Program-made: the position numbers and the translations under genes
Shown: piece after piece, positions 1,774 through 5,042 of the stretch
Layout of the letters: every line of letters starts with the position of its first letter
How positions within the stretch are numbered: the stretch's first letter is position 1
Source of the DNA: an archaeon
Lineage (GTDB): Archaea > Aenigmatarchaeota > Aenigmatarchaeia > GW2011-AR5 > GCA-2688965
Assembly: GCA_002688965.1 (NCBI GenBank)
Contig: NZEE01000089.1
Span: 1-7,363 of the forward strand
DNA: 7,363 nt
Reading direction: 5' to 3'
Notes under the pieces: generated by a model
Told to the model about the DNA's origin: nothing
What the model saw: only the letters and a program-made list of their open reading frames with translations
Databases searched by the model: none

Positions 1774-1805
1774 AACCCTTTAAATATAAATAATGTAAAA
1801 AAGGC

Positions 1806-1835
1806 TTGACTTATATCGATAAGTCATTTTATATT
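1806..1835 (+). promoter_or_regulatory. Sigma70-like promoter of the early operon
   Basis: TTGACT (1806-1811) matches five of six bases of the -35 consensus. TATATT (1830-1835) matches five of six of the -10 consensus. The spacing is 18 bp, and initiation is expected near 1841-1843. It lies in the largest A/T-rich non-coding stretch of the window, directly before the early gene block, which continues without a comparable promoter to the right edge. An inverted repeat overlaps the -35 and spacer (separate entry). Confidence 0.7.
1807..1826. promoter_or_regulatory. Inverted repeat overlapping the -35: candidate operator or weak terminator
   Basis: TGACTTAT (1807-1814) and ATAAGTCA (1819-1826) are perfect 8-bp inverted arms around ATCG. 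The repeat covers the -35 element and the first part of the spacer, an ideal place for a dimeric repressor to block polymerase. The small HTH protein encoded at 2407-2598 is a candidate ligand (inference). On RNA read through from the phosphoesterase gene the same repeat would be a hairpin followed by TTTTATATT, so it could also end that upstream transcript. The stem has only two G/C pairs per arm, so it would be a weak terminator. Confidence 0.5.
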
Positions 1836-1841
1836 ATAGTA

Positions 1842-1859
1842 GTTAGCGAAAACGCTAAC
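1842..1859 (+). promoter_or_regulatory. Perfect hairpin at the predicted 5' end of the early mRNA
   Basis: GTTAGCG (1842-1848) and CGCTAAC (1853-1859) are perfect 7-bp arms around a loop AAAA. The 5' arm begins where transcription from the 1806 promoter is expected to start (about 6-7 nt after the -10), so the transcript would open directly with this stem-loop. A 5'-terminal hairpin is known to protect some bacterial mRNAs from RNase E-type decay. As DNA it is also an operator-like dyad just downstream of the promoter. No T tract follows, so it is not a terminator. Confidence 0.5.
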
Positions 1860-1888
1860 GACAACAAAAGATGAAAGGAACACAAAAG

Positions 1889-2071
1889 ATGAAATCCGAA
1901 ACGAACCAGAAGTTATCCAAAATTGTATTAACAGGGCATTTCCATTCCACCGATGATATAATCTCGGAAGAAGATACTACGGAGATAATTATAGATAAAA
2001 ATGACTTCTTGAAAGCCGAGAATGAAAAGTTGAAAGCCGAGAACAAAAAGTTGAAAGCCGAAATAGCATAG
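1889..2071 (+). CDS. Early protein 1: acidic small protein with C-terminal leucine-zipper repeat
   Basis: 60 residues from ATG 1889, chosen because AAGGA (1875-1879) sits 9 nt upstream. The in-frame ATG at 1871, which would add six residues, lacks a clear RBS. The middle is acidic (STDDIISEEDTTEIII). The tail from about residue 41 is LKAENEK-LKAENKK-LKAEIA, with Leu every seventh residue and Asn at the other core position, as in parallel dimeric leucine zippers. The tail is encoded by tandem 21-bp units closely related to those ending the gene at 2135. It is the first gene after the early promoter. Its TAG stop lies inside the 5' strand of the tRNA-like element. No known family recognised. 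Confidence 0.65.
   Translation: MKSETNQKLSKIVLTGHFHSTDDIISEEDTTEIIIDKNDFLKAENEKLKAENKKLKAEIA
2009..2068 (+). repeat. Tandem 21-bp repeat (zipper coding), copy set 1
   Basis: Three consecutive units begin TTGAAAGCCGA at 2009, 2030 and 2051; the last is shortened by the stop codon. Each full unit encodes one heptad, LKAENEK or LKAENKK. Near-identity at the DNA level, including synonymous positions, suggests recent slippage expansion or gene conversion with set 2 at 2348-2401. Confidence 0.8.
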
Positions 2072-2110
2072 AATGGTCCATTGGGGTGGGTTCGATTCCC
2101 ACCCTATGCA
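2066..2110 (+). ncRNA. tRNA-like element: acceptor stem plus T-arm, no D or anticodon arm
   Basis: GCATAG (2066-2071) pairs perfectly with CTATGC (2104-2109). Between them is a canonical tRNA T-arm: GTGGG (2086-2090), loop TTCGATT (2091-2097), CCCAC (2098-2102). G2085-C2103 adds a further pair, so the acceptor (6 bp) and T-stem (6 bp) stack to 12 bp, the same total as a normal tRNA (7+5). A2110 is in the discriminator position; no CCA is encoded. Only 13 nt (2072-2084) replace the D-arm, anticodon arm and variable loop, and AATG/CATT within them could form a small stem. It cannot decode. Options are an RNase P or RNase Z processing site in the early mRNA, a stand-alone tRNA mimic, or a deleted tRNA relic. 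It overlaps the stop codon of the preceding gene. Confidence 0.5.
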
Positions 2111-2134
2111 CAGATAAAGAAAAAGGAGAGATAA

Positions 2135-2410
2135 ATGTTTATGAATGACTCGGAAAGAATCCAACACCATTTAGATAAAATCAAGAAGTTAAGAATCGAA
2201 AGAAGGATGCTATTGTTGAAAATCAAAGAACTGAGAGATTTACTCAAAATCTTCGAAATTCGTCGAAAAGCAAATGCGAAAAGTGGCTTGCTTTATATGC
2301 AAGAGCGTGATGCCTTAAAAAATGCGTACAAAGTCGAAAATGAAGCGTTGAAAACCGAGAATGAAAAGTTGAAAACCGAGAATGAAAAGTTAAAAAAGGA
2401 GAGAAAATGA
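2135..2410 (+). CDS. Early protein 2: basic coiled-coil protein with matching leucine-zipper tail
   Basis: 91 residues, almost entirely predicted helix and very rich in Lys, Glu, Arg and Leu. Residues 8-45 form one basic helical stretch (HLDKIKKLRIERRMLLLKIKELRD). From about 67 the tail reads VENEA-LKTENEK-LKTENEK-LKKERK, with Leu every seven residues and Asn at the alternate core position. The zipper is nearly the same as that of early protein 1, so the two may pair with each other (inference). The start has GGAG at 2125-2128, 6 nt upstream; a second ATG two codons in is possible. The stop overlaps the HTH gene as ATGA. No family recognised; a nucleic-acid-binding or structural adaptor role would suit its charge. 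Confidence 0.65.
   Translation: MFMNDSERIQHHLDKIKKLRIERRMLLLKIKELRDLLKIFEIRRKANAKSGLLYMQERDALKNAYKVENEALKTENEKLKTENEKLKKERK
2348..2401 (+). repeat. Tandem 21-bp repeat (zipper coding), copy set 2
   Basis: Two identical 21-bp units start with TTGAAAACCGAG at 2348 and 2369, followed by a partial unit from 2390 that runs into AAAAAAGGAG, the ribosome binding site of the HTH gene. The units differ from set 1 mainly by A for G in the third codon (LKT instead of LKA). The repeats therefore encode heptads and at their end also supply the next RBS. Confidence 0.8.
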
Positions 2411-2598
2411 ATAATCTGGGAAGTATAATCAAAGAAAAAGGACTGCGTAAGAATTGGGTGGCTAATAGGATGAATGTTTCTTCTTCCTTAGTTACCAAAT
2501 GGATCAAAGGAGATCGTCGCATTACGCCACCTTATCGTGAGAAATTGGCACGTTTGTTGGGTGTGCCTGCTGATATAATATGGAGTGATGATGTTTAG
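2407..2598 (+). CDS. Cro/XRE-like helix-turn-helix DNA-binding protein
   Basis: 63 residues, a single-domain HTH of the Cro/C1 type. Helix 2 is about residues 14-22 (RKNWVANRM), the turn is NVS and the recognition helix about 25-34 (SSSLVTKWIKG), followed by the usual RRITPP loop and the last helix, EKLARLLGV. This small size with no effector domain is typical of phage Cro-like regulators. It is translated from ATGA overlapping the stop of the coiled-coil gene, with AAGGAG from the repeat tail as RBS. It is the only obvious dedicated regulator in the early operon, so it is the prime candidate to bind the inverted repeats at 1807-1826 or 1842-1859 (inference). No partner repressor on the opposite strand is present. 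Confidence 0.8.
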   Translation: MNNLGSIIKEKGLRKNWVANRMNVSSSLVTKWIKGDRRITPPYREKLARLLGVPADIIWSDDV

Positions 2599-2785
2599 GG
2601 TTGTCATAACCAGAACTGATGATCAAGATGATACGGTATTCATGTCCGAATCACGCAATGATGCTATCGCATATTTCAACACTTTATTGCAGTTGATGCG
2701 GAAGCGGAAAATGAAATGGAAAGCGGTTTCGCTTTATGATAATAGCAAGCGTATCCAAATAGGAGAAGGAGAGATAAATGGATAA
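2591..2785 (+). CDS. Hypothetical early protein, 64 aa
   Basis: Three in-frame starts sit together: GTG 2585, ATG 2588 and ATG 2591. ATG 2591 has the best spacing from GGAG at 2582-2585, giving 64 residues and an 8-nt overlap with the HTH gene. It begins with a strand-like MFRVVITRT, followed by an acidic turn (DDQDD), a helix (SRNDAIAYFNTLLQLMRKRK) and another strand (KWKAVSLYDN), so it is probably a small alpha/beta protein. The 3' end overlaps the next start by 8 nt. No known family recognised; position suggests an early accessory function. Confidence 0.6.
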   Translation: MFRVVITRTDDQDDTVFMSESRNDAIAYFNTLLQLMRKRKMKWKAVSLYDNSKRIQIGEGEING

Positions 2786-3017: not shown

Positions 3018-3568
3018 GTGTATTTATTCATGGTAAAGAATACGTTACAGTTGATGAGAGGGTTCAAGAGTTTCACGAAACTCATCCAAATGGAAAAATC
3101 GAAACGAATTTAATCACTTCCGTAGATGGTAAATTCATTGTAAAGGCATTTGTAACACCAAATGTAGAAGTATCTGAACGGGTTTTTACAGGCTTGGCGT
3201 ACGAGGAAGTCGGTTCTTCGCAGATCAACCAGACGAGTGCTTTGGAGAACTGCGAAACGTCAGCAGTTGGTAGAGCGTTAGGTTTTCTTGGAATAGGCTT
3301 AATTGGCTCGATAGCGACAGGTGATGAAGTTGCTAATGCGATACACCAACAAGAGAATAAAGTTCCTTATTCAGACGATTCTGACATTATCTGGTTTGGG
3401 AAGCACAAATCGGAGCGGTGGGCAGACATGGATGATGGTTACTTAAATTGGGTTTCAAAAAATATGACAGGAAAACCCAAACGATTAGCAGATGATGAAC
3501 TTGGGAAAAGAAATCCAGACGATACGAAAGCCAGCGATGATGAGGTGCAAGATGAAATACCATTCTGA
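3014..3568 (+). CDS. ERF/Rad52-like single-strand annealing protein with SSB-like acidic tip
   Basis: 184 residues in three parts. Residues 5-111 (GKEYVTVDERVQEFHETHP, then SALENCETSAVGRALGFLGIG and GDEVANAI) match my memory of a widespread phage family with the ERF-type ETSAVGRAL signature, expected to anneal complementary single strands in recombination. Residues 125-150 (IIWFGKHKSERWADMDDGYLNWV) resemble the small FGKHKG domain at the C-terminus of ExoX-like exonucleases (DUF3820-type). The last 16 residues are acidic and end DEIPF, close to the DDDIPF tip by which bacterial SSB recruits partners. RBS GGAG is at 3005-3008, with a 4-nt ATGA overlap with the previous gene. RusA is encoded downstream. 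An ssDNA-binding rather than annealing role is an alternative. Confidence 0.7.
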   Translation: MSVFIHGKEYVTVDERVQEFHETHPNGKIETNLITSVDGKFIVKAFVTPNVEVSERVFTGLAYEEVGSSQINQTSALENCETSAVGRALGFLGIGLIGSIATGDEVANAIHQQENKVPYSDDSDIIWFGKHKSERWADMDDGYLNWVSKNMTGKPKRLADDELGKRNPDDTKASDDEVQDEIPF

Positions 3569-4166: not shown

Positions 4167-5042
4167 ATGAAGCCACACAAAACCCACTTCGAATCCCACA
4201 TTAAAGCCGAGAAATCTGAATCGCGAGGTTCAGAGCGCGTTCCTAAACATCTGCGTAAAAATTCTCGGCTCGGCTTTATAAAATTACATCGGAAACTTCG
4301 TAAACATTGGCTGTGGGAAGATGCTGAAAAACTCAAAGCATGGCTGGATATTCTGATGGAAGTTAATCATGGTGAGCGCAAAGTTCTGATAGGTAATAAA
4401 CTTGTAACTTGTAAGCGAGGAGAATCTTGCCACAGTATTCTGTCTTGGTCAAATCGGTGGAATTGGTCAAGAAGGAAAGTAAGAAGATTCTTTGAAATGC
4501 TCGCAGATGATACAATGATTGGTTTCAAAACGCACACCAAAACTACCTACCTAAAGGTAATGAATTACAGCACTTACCAAGACACGCAGACATCAGACGC
4601 ACATCAAACGGACATCAAACGCACATCAAATGCACATCAAACGCACACAAACAAAGAATTAGAAGTAATTAAAAAGAATGAAAAAGAATATGTGAACAAT
4701 TTCATTTTTCTTAAATCTCATTGGTCATTAATTATTGAACTGTATCCAAACCTGAACGATCTCCAAAGTGCTATCCGTCAATGGAATTATATGAAAGCAA
4801 ATGAATCCACAGCAATGGATATTGTCGAAGCAATTAAAGGTCAAAAAATATCTGGACAGTTGCCCGATAATCAATTCTGTCCGCTATTGAAAAATTGGTT
4901 GAAAAATGAACGATGGAAGGATGCTGTAAATTCTCCATCTGATGCGCTTACTTATGAGAAACTGCTGGATAGAGTTTATGTCAGAGGTGAAACGACTAAA
5001 GATTACAAACGAGGAAAGGATGGATTGTGGTCAAAAAGATAA
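4167..5042 (+). CDS. Phage replication initiator (O/replisome-organiser type) containing the origin
   Basis: 291 residues. Residues 34-135 look like the winged-helix N-domain of phage replisome organisers: GFIKLHRKLRKHWLWED, KLKAWLDILMEVN, LVTCKRGE, SWSNRWNWSRRKVRRFFEMLADD, then TTYLKVMNYSTYQ. Residues 139-165 are a His/Thr/Gln-rich linker encoded by 11-bp iterons. The C-part (175-270, including PLLKNWLKNERWKDA) resembles the region that contacts helicase or loader in such proteins. It should bind the iterons in its own gene and recruit the host or phage helicase. The RBS is weak (TAGG about 9 nt upstream), unlike its neighbours, so expression may be kept low. The 34-residue N-terminal extension is basic. 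The 3' end overlaps rusA by 16 nt. Confidence 0.75.
   Translation: MKPHKTHFESHIKAEKSESRGSERVPKHLRKNSRLGFIKLHRKLRKHWLWEDAEKLKAWLDILMEVNHGERKVLIGNKLVTCKRGESCHSILSWSNRWNWSRRKVRRFFEMLADDTMIGFKTHTKTTYLKVMNYSTYQDTQTSDAHQTDIKRTSNAHQTHTNKELEVIKKNEKEYVNNFIFLKSHWSLIIELYPNLNDLQSAIRQWNYMKANESTAMDIVEAIKGQKISGQLPDNQFCPLLKNWLKNERWKDAVNSPSDALTYEKLLDRVYVRGETTKDYKRGKDGLWSKR
4588..4652 (+). repeat. Iterons: tandem 11-bp repeats, candidate replication origin
   Basis: Core units are GCACATCAAAC (4599-4609), GGACATCAAAC (4610-4620), GCACATCAAAT (4621-4631) and GCACATCAAAC (4632-4642). Degenerate flanking units are AGACATCAGAC (4588-4598) and GCACACAAAC (4643-4652). A similar GCACACCAAAA lies at 4532-4542. The 11-bp period is one DNA turn and is not a multiple of three, so the array is a DNA signal rather than a protein repeat. 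Its place inside the initiator gene, directly before an A/T-rich stretch, is the lambda O/ori arrangement. Confidence 0.75.
4653..4740 (+). other. A/T-rich segment beside iterons, candidate DNA-unwinding element
   Basis: This 88-bp stretch has 18 G/C bases, about 80% A/T, and starts immediately after the last iteron. Its first part is strongly A/G-rich on the + strand (AATTAAAAAGAATGAAAAAG). In lambda-type origins the duplex opens in such a segment next to the iterons. The assignment is by position and composition only. It codes for residues about 163-192 of the initiator. Confidence 0.5.

Follow-up and report, generated by a model that had tools for sequence, protein, structure and literature searches.

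In mitochondria, genes are separated by transfer RNA (tRNA) units that are excised from the transcript, an arrangement known as tRNA punctuation. The units there are real, decoding tRNAs, whereas those considered here, in tailed viruses, are minimal and non-decoding. The subject of this work is one such unit of 45 nt, at positions 2066 to 2110 of contig NZEE01000089.1 (assembly GCA_002688965.1, assigned to an archaeon of the Aenigmatarchaeota), of which the whole analysed stretch of 7,363 nt is called the window below. It joins the acceptor stem of a tRNA directly to a T-arm, with a short spacer where the D and anticodon arms would be, and stands between two genes with coiled-coil repeats. The element belongs to a large family that recurs in many viruses of bacteria and archaea. 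We consider it reasonably probable that the window element is a viral t-element, i.e., a two-cut signal for RNase P and tRNase Z placed where two genes of a polycistronic phage transcript meet.

Of the closest described systems, the t-elements of plant mitochondria are likewise non-decoding tRNA-like folds at gene ends, where RNase P and RNase Z set the ends of mRNAs; t-elements are cut by one or both of RNase P and tRNase Z in plant mitochondria and before the 5S ribosomal RNA (rRNA) of Haloferax (PMC11658184 and PMC4326828, in the portions drawn on here, as holds for every paper cited). The viral elements differ from those of plants in their length of ~40-48 nt, in lacking both the anticodon and the D arm, and in occurring in series in some viral genomes. 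The Haloferax volcanii t-element upstream of 5S rRNA is a tRNA-like processing signal cut by tRNase Z, from the host domain of the HF2 group of viruses (Holzle 2008, 2012, as cited in PMC4326828); it lies, however, in a cellular rRNA operon, and the likeness is drawn from its description. The artificial RNase P model substrates AT1 and pMini are built of the same parts and have the same 12-bp distance from T-loop to cut: hairpins of acceptor, T-stem and T-loop are correctly cut by the E. coli RNase P RNA, the distance from the T-loop to the 5' end is a conserved 12 bp, and G19, G53 and A58 show interference (PMC11143913). In contrast to these hairpins, the viral elements are natural, have a GG in the spacer opposite the T-loop, and often divide the helix 6+6 rather than 7+5. 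Finally, a hammerhead lies 13 nt before the helicase gene of HF1 and HF2 (PMC3088659), so that cutting just upstream of a start codon has already been suspected in this virus group, although the hammerhead is self-cleaving and has another fold. The open-access literature, in the portions covered and with subscription literature largely outside that scope, yielded no description of elements like ours in bacterial or archaeal viruses. What is new here is thus the presence in tailed viruses, serially in some genomes, of minimal units of the t-element kind, which are real and recurrent, with conserved pairing and a preferred place.

The window element reads GCATAG-AATGGTCCATTGG-GGTGGG-TTCGATT-CCCACC-CTATGC-A. 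Its parts and the genes on either side are as follows.

2066..2110, plus strand: mini tRNA-like element (acceptor, T-arm and discriminator A), recognized from the sequence, by our own scanner and by covariance model R1
2066..2071, plus strand: 5' acceptor strand GCATAG, containing GCA (the last sense codon) and the TAG stop of the first gene
2072..2084, plus strand: spacer AATGGTCCATTGG, 13 nt, in place of the D and anticodon arms
2085..2103, plus strand: T-arm, with a 6-bp stem GGTGGG/CCCACC (2085-2090 / 2098-2103) and loop TTCGATT (2091-2097)
2104..2109, plus strand: 3' acceptor strand CTATGC
2110, plus strand: discriminator A
1871..2071, plus strand: upstream gene, 66 amino acids, with C-terminal coiled-coil repeats (KAENEKLKAENKKLKAE; coiled coil by eye)
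2135..2410, plus strand: downstream gene, 91 amino acids, with a coiled-coil C-terminus (KTENEKLKTENEKLKKE; coiled coil by eye)

An earlier note on this DNA had claimed 6-bp ends, a canonical T-arm with the loop TTCGATT, a 12-bp helix, the replacement of the D and anticodon arms by 13 nt, and a position between two coiled-coil genes with the TAG of the first in the 5' strand. All of this is exact in the sequence, the coiled coils being judged by eye. The stacked helix has 12 pairs (acceptor 6, T-stem 6), the length of a minimal RNase P substrate; the TAG of the first coiled-coil gene occupies 2069-2071, inside the 5' acceptor strand; and AAGGAG at 2123-2128 precedes the downstream gene start at 2135. 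At 2073-2077, the spacer has ATGGT, which matches the (A)TGGT of the family as a whole and may be the counterpart of the D-loop G18G19. Such an arrangement seldom arises by chance: when the window was dinucleotide-shuffled 3000 times (22.1 Mb), five comparable elements with a spacer of 8-46 nt appeared, one of them with GG near the 5' side, corresponding to a chance of 0.0003-0.0017 per window. The folding energy of -17.3 kcal/mol is unremarkable (z -1.5; 15 of 200 shuffles fold equally well), and the case for the element is therefore built on comparison rather than energy.

A scan for GCATAG and CTATGC around a T-arm, with spacing up to that of a full tRNA, found nine contigs (designated here, like all contigs and loci, by L numbers). 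One has a full tRNA-Ile (L083), and eight have elements of 44-47 nt. The carriers include contigs of T7-like cyanophages (judged from L084 and L087, with L085, L088 and L089 sharing flanks) and others, such as L090, where the same contig encodes 12 ARAGORN tRNAs and a transfer-messenger RNA (tmRNA). The spacer GG was not searched for, and TGG is found near the 5' side in seven of the eight contigs and GGT in the eighth. L086 was seen to have two mini elements on the same strand ~1 kb apart (2439-2482 and 3522-3568), with the different acceptors GAACTG and GCATAG. Our own scanner gave 65 sites in 215 loci (1.92 Mb) against none in one shuffle. The spacer contains GG at 43 of the 65; these sites include stretches of real tRNAs, and many of the loci had been fetched by T-arm patterns.

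Two scans that named no acceptor, with at least 120 matching stretches each, brought out many different acceptor sequences; they fixed TGGT or ATGGT and hence cannot show how often the GG is kept. The acceptor-blind pattern, in which only ATGGT and the T-arm core were fixed, gave at least 116 distinct sites, these and all further counts from it being among the matches listed; after removal of the 37 that overlap ARAGORN tRNAs, 79 remained outside tRNA genes. These sites are distinct in sequence but not independent, as some contigs are related. A flush acceptor of at least 5 bp is formed at 60 of the 79 and of at least 6 bp at 41, against 2-8 and 0-2, respectively, in six shifted-register controls; none of the 37 sites within ARAGORN tRNAs has a flush acceptor of at least 6 bp in the mini register. 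The 60 elements with at least 5 bp have 52 different acceptor strings. This diversity bears on an explanation in which the element is a free mini-RNA acting in trans, a top-half tRNA mimic that occupies or distracts tRNA enzymes, or defence nucleases directed at the acceptor or elbow of tRNA. Retention of elbow and acceptor with loss of the decoding parts would suit a mimic, and several copies per genome (three in tandem in Gordonia phage Trine) would yield many molecules. However, a decoy needs neither acceptors that vary within and between genomes nor a placement at stop codons, and we regard such a role as quite improbable.

Pairing that the searches did not demand comes from a curated set of 38 elements, for which a spacer of 8-20 nt with GG among its first 11 nt was required. 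Stretches of ARAGORN tRNAs were left out of it except in L127, L215 and L133; L131, L168, L209, L185, L197, L137 and L094 were excluded by hand as doubtful; and L084, L085, L087-L089 and the GCATAG element of L086 are absent, as the scanner did not report them. At least one base separates the 5-bp T-stem from the 6-bp acceptor on the 3' side in 25 of the 38, and the sixth T-stem pair, which the scanner does not require, forms in 21 of these 25 (20 Watson-Crick; GC 9, CG 7, UA 2, AU 2, UG 1). Permutation means are 10.3 for any pair and 7.6 for Watson-Crick pairs, and none of 10,000 permutations was as high. Six T-stem pairs, the number in the window element, are thus common where tRNA has five. 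The 3' strand from the T-loop to the last pair measures 12 in 21 elements, 13 in 11, 11 in five and 15 in one, so that 37 of 38 lie at 11-13. A covariance model (R1) was made from five equal-length elements from four contigs with the window excluded, an alignment of 31 elements having misregistered the 5' acceptors. With R1, the window element scores 37.3 bits (E 3.5e-7 in 306 kb), L082 34.2 bits, the Trine elements 28-34, Syn5 32.6, S-TIP37 and S-TIP28 32.1, and HF2 21.7. The motif of a second family had no match in genome_contigs. Among named phages, DNA searches gave no match to the parts of L215, L217 and L225 used as queries; for L223, four records aligned to 5% of the part searched, in pentapeptide-repeat and similar genes.

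The viruses of the HF2 group provide evidence that the pairing itself is conserved. One element of HF2, at 4375-4415, is flanked by annotated genes that end at 4346 and start at 4446; a second site, at 2922, is a T-arm with 5+6 pairs between genes ending at 2875 and starting at 2979. Both are kept in all nine viruses compared (HF2 and eight others chosen from 41 records matching the region). The 4375-type element lies between annotated genes in all nine and the 2922-type in four (HF2, HRTV-22, Serpecor1 and VOLN27B); in HJTV-1, HRTV-21, HRTV-10, HRTV-14 and HRTV-16 the annotation of the downstream gene begins further upstream and covers part or all of the second element, which may be a start-site error. 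Across eight distinct rows of the 4375 element, all acceptor and T-stem cells pair (acceptor 48/48), and acceptor pair 5 changes from C-G to U-A in Serpecor1, with G-U and U-G wobbles elsewhere; a hairpin downstream of the element has double changes at two pairs. In the alignment, 99.4% of cells pair, against 25-46% with slid partners, and the covariation score and the number of cells with a double change exceed all 500 shuffles, in a set whose rows are few and closely related and whose shuffle control is mixed.

These observations count against the elements being relics of deleted tRNAs, which the earlier note had offered as an alternative, or attachment-site (attP) copies of the 3' end of a host tRNA. 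Descent from a tRNA is plausible: the hairpin before the cyanophage mini elements has a relative in S-CREM1, where a full tRNA-Ala follows it. In HF2, a different tRNA-like gene serves as the attP (PMC8707807). Nevertheless, both acceptor strands have been kept, one acceptor pair covaries in the HF2 group, and some contigs have many copies; the relic is thus unlikely as the whole story. As for attP in a tRNA gene, an exact search of genome_contigs with the 24-nt 3' end of the window element gave no match, and none of the 10 window proteins tested matched an integrase family, on which grounds this identification was rejected. We accord relic and attP copy together very little probability.

Other identities of the window element were likewise discarded. 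It is not a tRNA gene, since the D and anticodon arms are missing and neither ARAGORN, which reported no tRNA or tmRNA in the whole window, nor the tRNA model made a call there. The tmRNA model (RF00023) matches the T-arm alone (2086-2102; 15.5 bits against a gathering threshold of 47). A minus-strand match to the Plastid-ycf2 5'UTR RNA (RF04354; 26.5 bits against 65.7) is taken as an artefact of tRNA-likeness, because two ordinary tRNAs in L090 match likewise on the minus strand; one further weak match in Rfam, to a small nucleolar RNA, is unrelated. An intrinsic terminator was rejected as the stem in the window is not followed by a T run, a judgement made from the sequence and not by a dedicated terminator scan.

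Further named viruses extend the family beyond haloviruses. Among nine cyanophages, the stretch before the capsid gene has an element in Syn5 (with a 5-bp acceptor), S-TIP28 and S-TIP37, and a T-arm alone in S-CBP2. The acceptors in this position, GGTAG(A), AACTGA and the GCATAG of the contigs, are unrelated sequences that all pair. Gordonia phage Trine (L357:31978-32249; L307 is 100% identical to Trine over the 4,001 bases compared) has three tandem elements ahead of gp40, whose annotated N-terminus extends through them; the start of gp40 is likely the ATG after the third element. The scanner, which needs six acceptor pairs, missed these three, and they were found by the T-arm scan and R1; in Mahdia, a relative of Trine, none was found by the scanner, the T-arm scan or R1. 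The most extensive series is in L215, an HF2-like contig piece with a helicase 51% identical to that of HF2, where 13 T-arms, all on one strand, are spread over 15 kb. ARAGORN calls one of the nine scanner-found elements of L215, as a tRNA-Met. That call (L215:6876-6969) spans a mini element, and annotation pipelines may make false tRNAs of such elements.

Placement was counted for the 60 elements with acceptors of at least 5 bp, using a crude gene caller and open reading frames (ORFs) of at least 80 amino acids. Outside such ORFs lie 43 of the 60 (72%), against 27% of random points, and 28 of the 43 are flanked on both sides by same-strand genes. Like the t-elements of other systems, the window element combines a tRNA-like acceptor and T-arm fold with a position at a gene end or start; in the family at large that position is a preference and not a feature of every member. 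Where a same-strand gene lies upstream (36 elements), the distance from its stop codon to the element start is at most 30 nt in 25 cases, made up of 11 overlaps, one abutting element and 13 elements that start 1-15 nt past the stop. Three of the 36 show the very overlap seen in the window (-6, from element start 2066 and gene end 2071). A location between stop and start codons with the stop inside a stem might also suggest another cis role, such as translation coupling or attenuation between the two genes, in which tRNA enzymes take no part. This would leave unexplained the co-occurrence of a tRNA T-loop, the spacer GG and a helix of 12-13 bp, and we deem it very improbable.

The overlap with stop codons may reflect regulated cutting, or a 3' cut only. 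In the latter case, the element would be a cap: the 3' enzyme would cut (or transcription would end nearby), the fold, possibly CCA-tailed, would protect the mRNA end of the first gene, RNase P cutting would be absent or minor, and a stop codon in the acceptor would do no harm. Besides the overlaps in the window and the other elements counted above, the annotated upstream ORF of S-TIP37, which terminates within the acceptor, and the CCA-tailing of plant t-elements (PMC11658184) are in its favour. Conversely, the 13 elements that start past the stop count against it, and the hairpin that precedes some elements (L217 at 2889; L218 at 2031 and 2954; L087) could already protect a 3' end and fits removal of the element better. 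We therefore think the cap unlikely.

Local hairpins are a recurrent neighbour. In L215, seven of 13 elements are followed by a GGCA..TGCC or GGTA..TACC hairpin ahead of the next ATG, and in L217 four of six by GACCC..GGGTC, GAGCC..GGCTC or GAGTC..GACTC. Since 53-64% of random 40-nt stretches contain a stem of at least 4 bp, the argument from downstream hairpins rests on this paired alternation of letters. On the upstream side, stems of 5 bp or more are present in 5/13 (L215), 2/6 (L217) and 3/4 (L218) cases, against 13-20% at random. A conserved hairpin lies before the mini element in cyanophage contigs (L087:3286-3342) and before the full tRNA-Ala in S-CREM1 (L214:1501-1557); by eye, its stem covaries (GCCTAAGC/GCTTAGGC versus GGTTAAGT/ACTTAACC). 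It holds CTGATGAG but no GAAA, and no hammerhead match is listed for L087.

The preferred reading, that of a two-cut t-element, can be laid out as follows. The stacked acceptor and T-stem would form the 12-bp helix that RNase P measures, and the spacer TGG, set as D-loop G18G19 against the T-loop, would complete the tRNA elbow. The viral elements keep the RNase P substrate features defined on the model hairpins, if the spacer GG indeed stands for G18/G19. Cleavage by RNase P would then fall before 2066 and that by a tRNase Z-type 3' enzyme after 2109/2110, which would release a mini RNA and define the 5' end of the downstream gene (AC/AGATAAAGAAAAAGGAG...). With the stop codon of the first gene in the acceptor strand, a ribosome finishing that gene would keep the element open; we propose that termination and cutting are therefore mutually exclusive and that cutting retires its message. 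The sequences show the structure class, the pairing, the helix length, the preference for gene junctions and the recurrence in viruses of bacteria and archaea, whereas the enzymes, the cuts and their consequences are what we infer. The suggestion of the earlier note that the element is a substrate through which the transcript is cut is strengthened by the recurrence of the structure with unrelated acceptors, its gene junctions, its helix of mostly 12-13 bp, the unsought GG and the compensatory change in haloviruses. Its further idea, that an RNase P cut before 2066 removes the stop codon, starts from a real overlap, which is, however, not special to the window. In HF2, transcripts of up to 35 kb are detected by reverse transcription-PCR (RT-PCR) but Northern bands are mostly of 1-2.5 kb, for which processing is one explanation put forward by the authors (PMC8707807).

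Several points weigh against the two-cut reading. The authors who mapped the 5' end T-4384 of HF2 call it a transcription start (PMC8707807). It falls within the element at 4375, 9 nt from the element start, and agrees neither with RNase P cutting at 4375 nor with cutting on the 3' side. For 11 of the 36 elements with a same-strand upstream gene, a 5' cut is expected in or before the stop codon. It is because of T-4384 and the harm that 5' cutting would do to many stop codons that we hold the reading to be reasonably probable and no firmer. The RNase P and RNase Z of the window's host may have other preferences. Inside an ORF of at least 80 amino acids lie 17 of the 60 elements, nine on the opposite and eight on the same strand. 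In the HF2 group, the pairs with a double change (3 versus 1.6; 31 of 500 shuffles) are weakly above the shuffles, and the further pair types (6 versus 7.4) are not above them. No T-arm was found in the stretch before the capsid gene in five of the nine cyanophages (S-CBP42, P60, S-CBP1, SS120-1 and DSL-LC07), and flanking hairpins are not universal. To the unremarkable folding energy is added that the predicted minimum fold of the window element gains two T-stem pairs and loses two acceptor pairs, and that the acceptor is missing from the predicted minimum in 181 nt of window context. Lastly, the element is dispensable, as the closest relative of the window by its phosphoesterase, L001 (69% identity), is without it. 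Apart from these points, T-4384 may reflect initiation, processing or arrest of the reverse transcriptase, and re-mapping it may be worthwhile.

The immediate relatives of the window give a picture of its surroundings. An exact scan for the T-arm and 3' acceptor found one viral contig, L082, whose stems are identical to those of the window and whose spacer has 16 nt, not 13; the window pattern with its 13-nt spacer length had no match in viral contigs. The L082 element also adjoins genes with coiled-coil-like repeats and has a short hairpin downstream (GAGCAGTATTGCTC), both by eye. Its proteins are 58% (the 509-736 gene), 48% (the 2585-2785 gene) and 44% (the RusA-like gene) identical to those of the window, and the latter two genes keep their order after the element; the stems have thus remained unchanged although these shared proteins diverged by about half. 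With both stems identical in the only close homologue, a check for paired changes is uninformative for the window element. L001 has neither coiled-coil genes nor the element between its phosphoesterase and Cro-like genes, and GGTTCGANTCC was not found in the L001 contig record. No relatives of the window's Cro-like gene were confirmed, and a DNA search of window positions 1800-2600 against named phages matched only 34 bases of a Serratia phage. The upstream gene 1871..2071 has a weak PHROG match (phrog_3671, a family of unknown function), and K(A/T)ENEKLK coiled-coil-like repeats are common to the C-termini of the 1871-2071 and 2135-2410 products. There is no obvious hairpin beside the window element. 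Separately, a viral contig (L024:2418-2495) has a 78-nt match to the tmRNA model at 62.1 bits, above gathering; it has a tRNA-like domain with a 7-bp acceptor and little room for a tag reading frame, and may be a mini-tmRNA or a relic.

More tentatively, and with the odds rather against it, we suggest that tailed viruses of bacteria and archaea share, or have repeatedly evolved, a tRNA punctuation of their own. Their genes would lie between ~45-nt non-decoding top halves of tRNA, in some viruses with hairpins that become the new ends after excision; in many of them, a stop codon in the acceptor would make termination and cutting exclusive; and host RNase P and RNase Z would time viral gene expression. 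Cultured viruses of Synechococcus, Gordonia and Halorubrum already allow the family to be studied. If cutting takes place, the signal has been largely missed by standard finders, and the elements are natural minimal substrates that reveal which parts of a tRNA RNase P needs. Cutting would also explain the long RT-PCR products of HF2 beside its shorter Northern bands and tie the expression of phage genes to RNase P. The tRNA-maturation enzymes of the host would then act as mRNA-processing enzymes for many tailed viruses, and in two domains of life.
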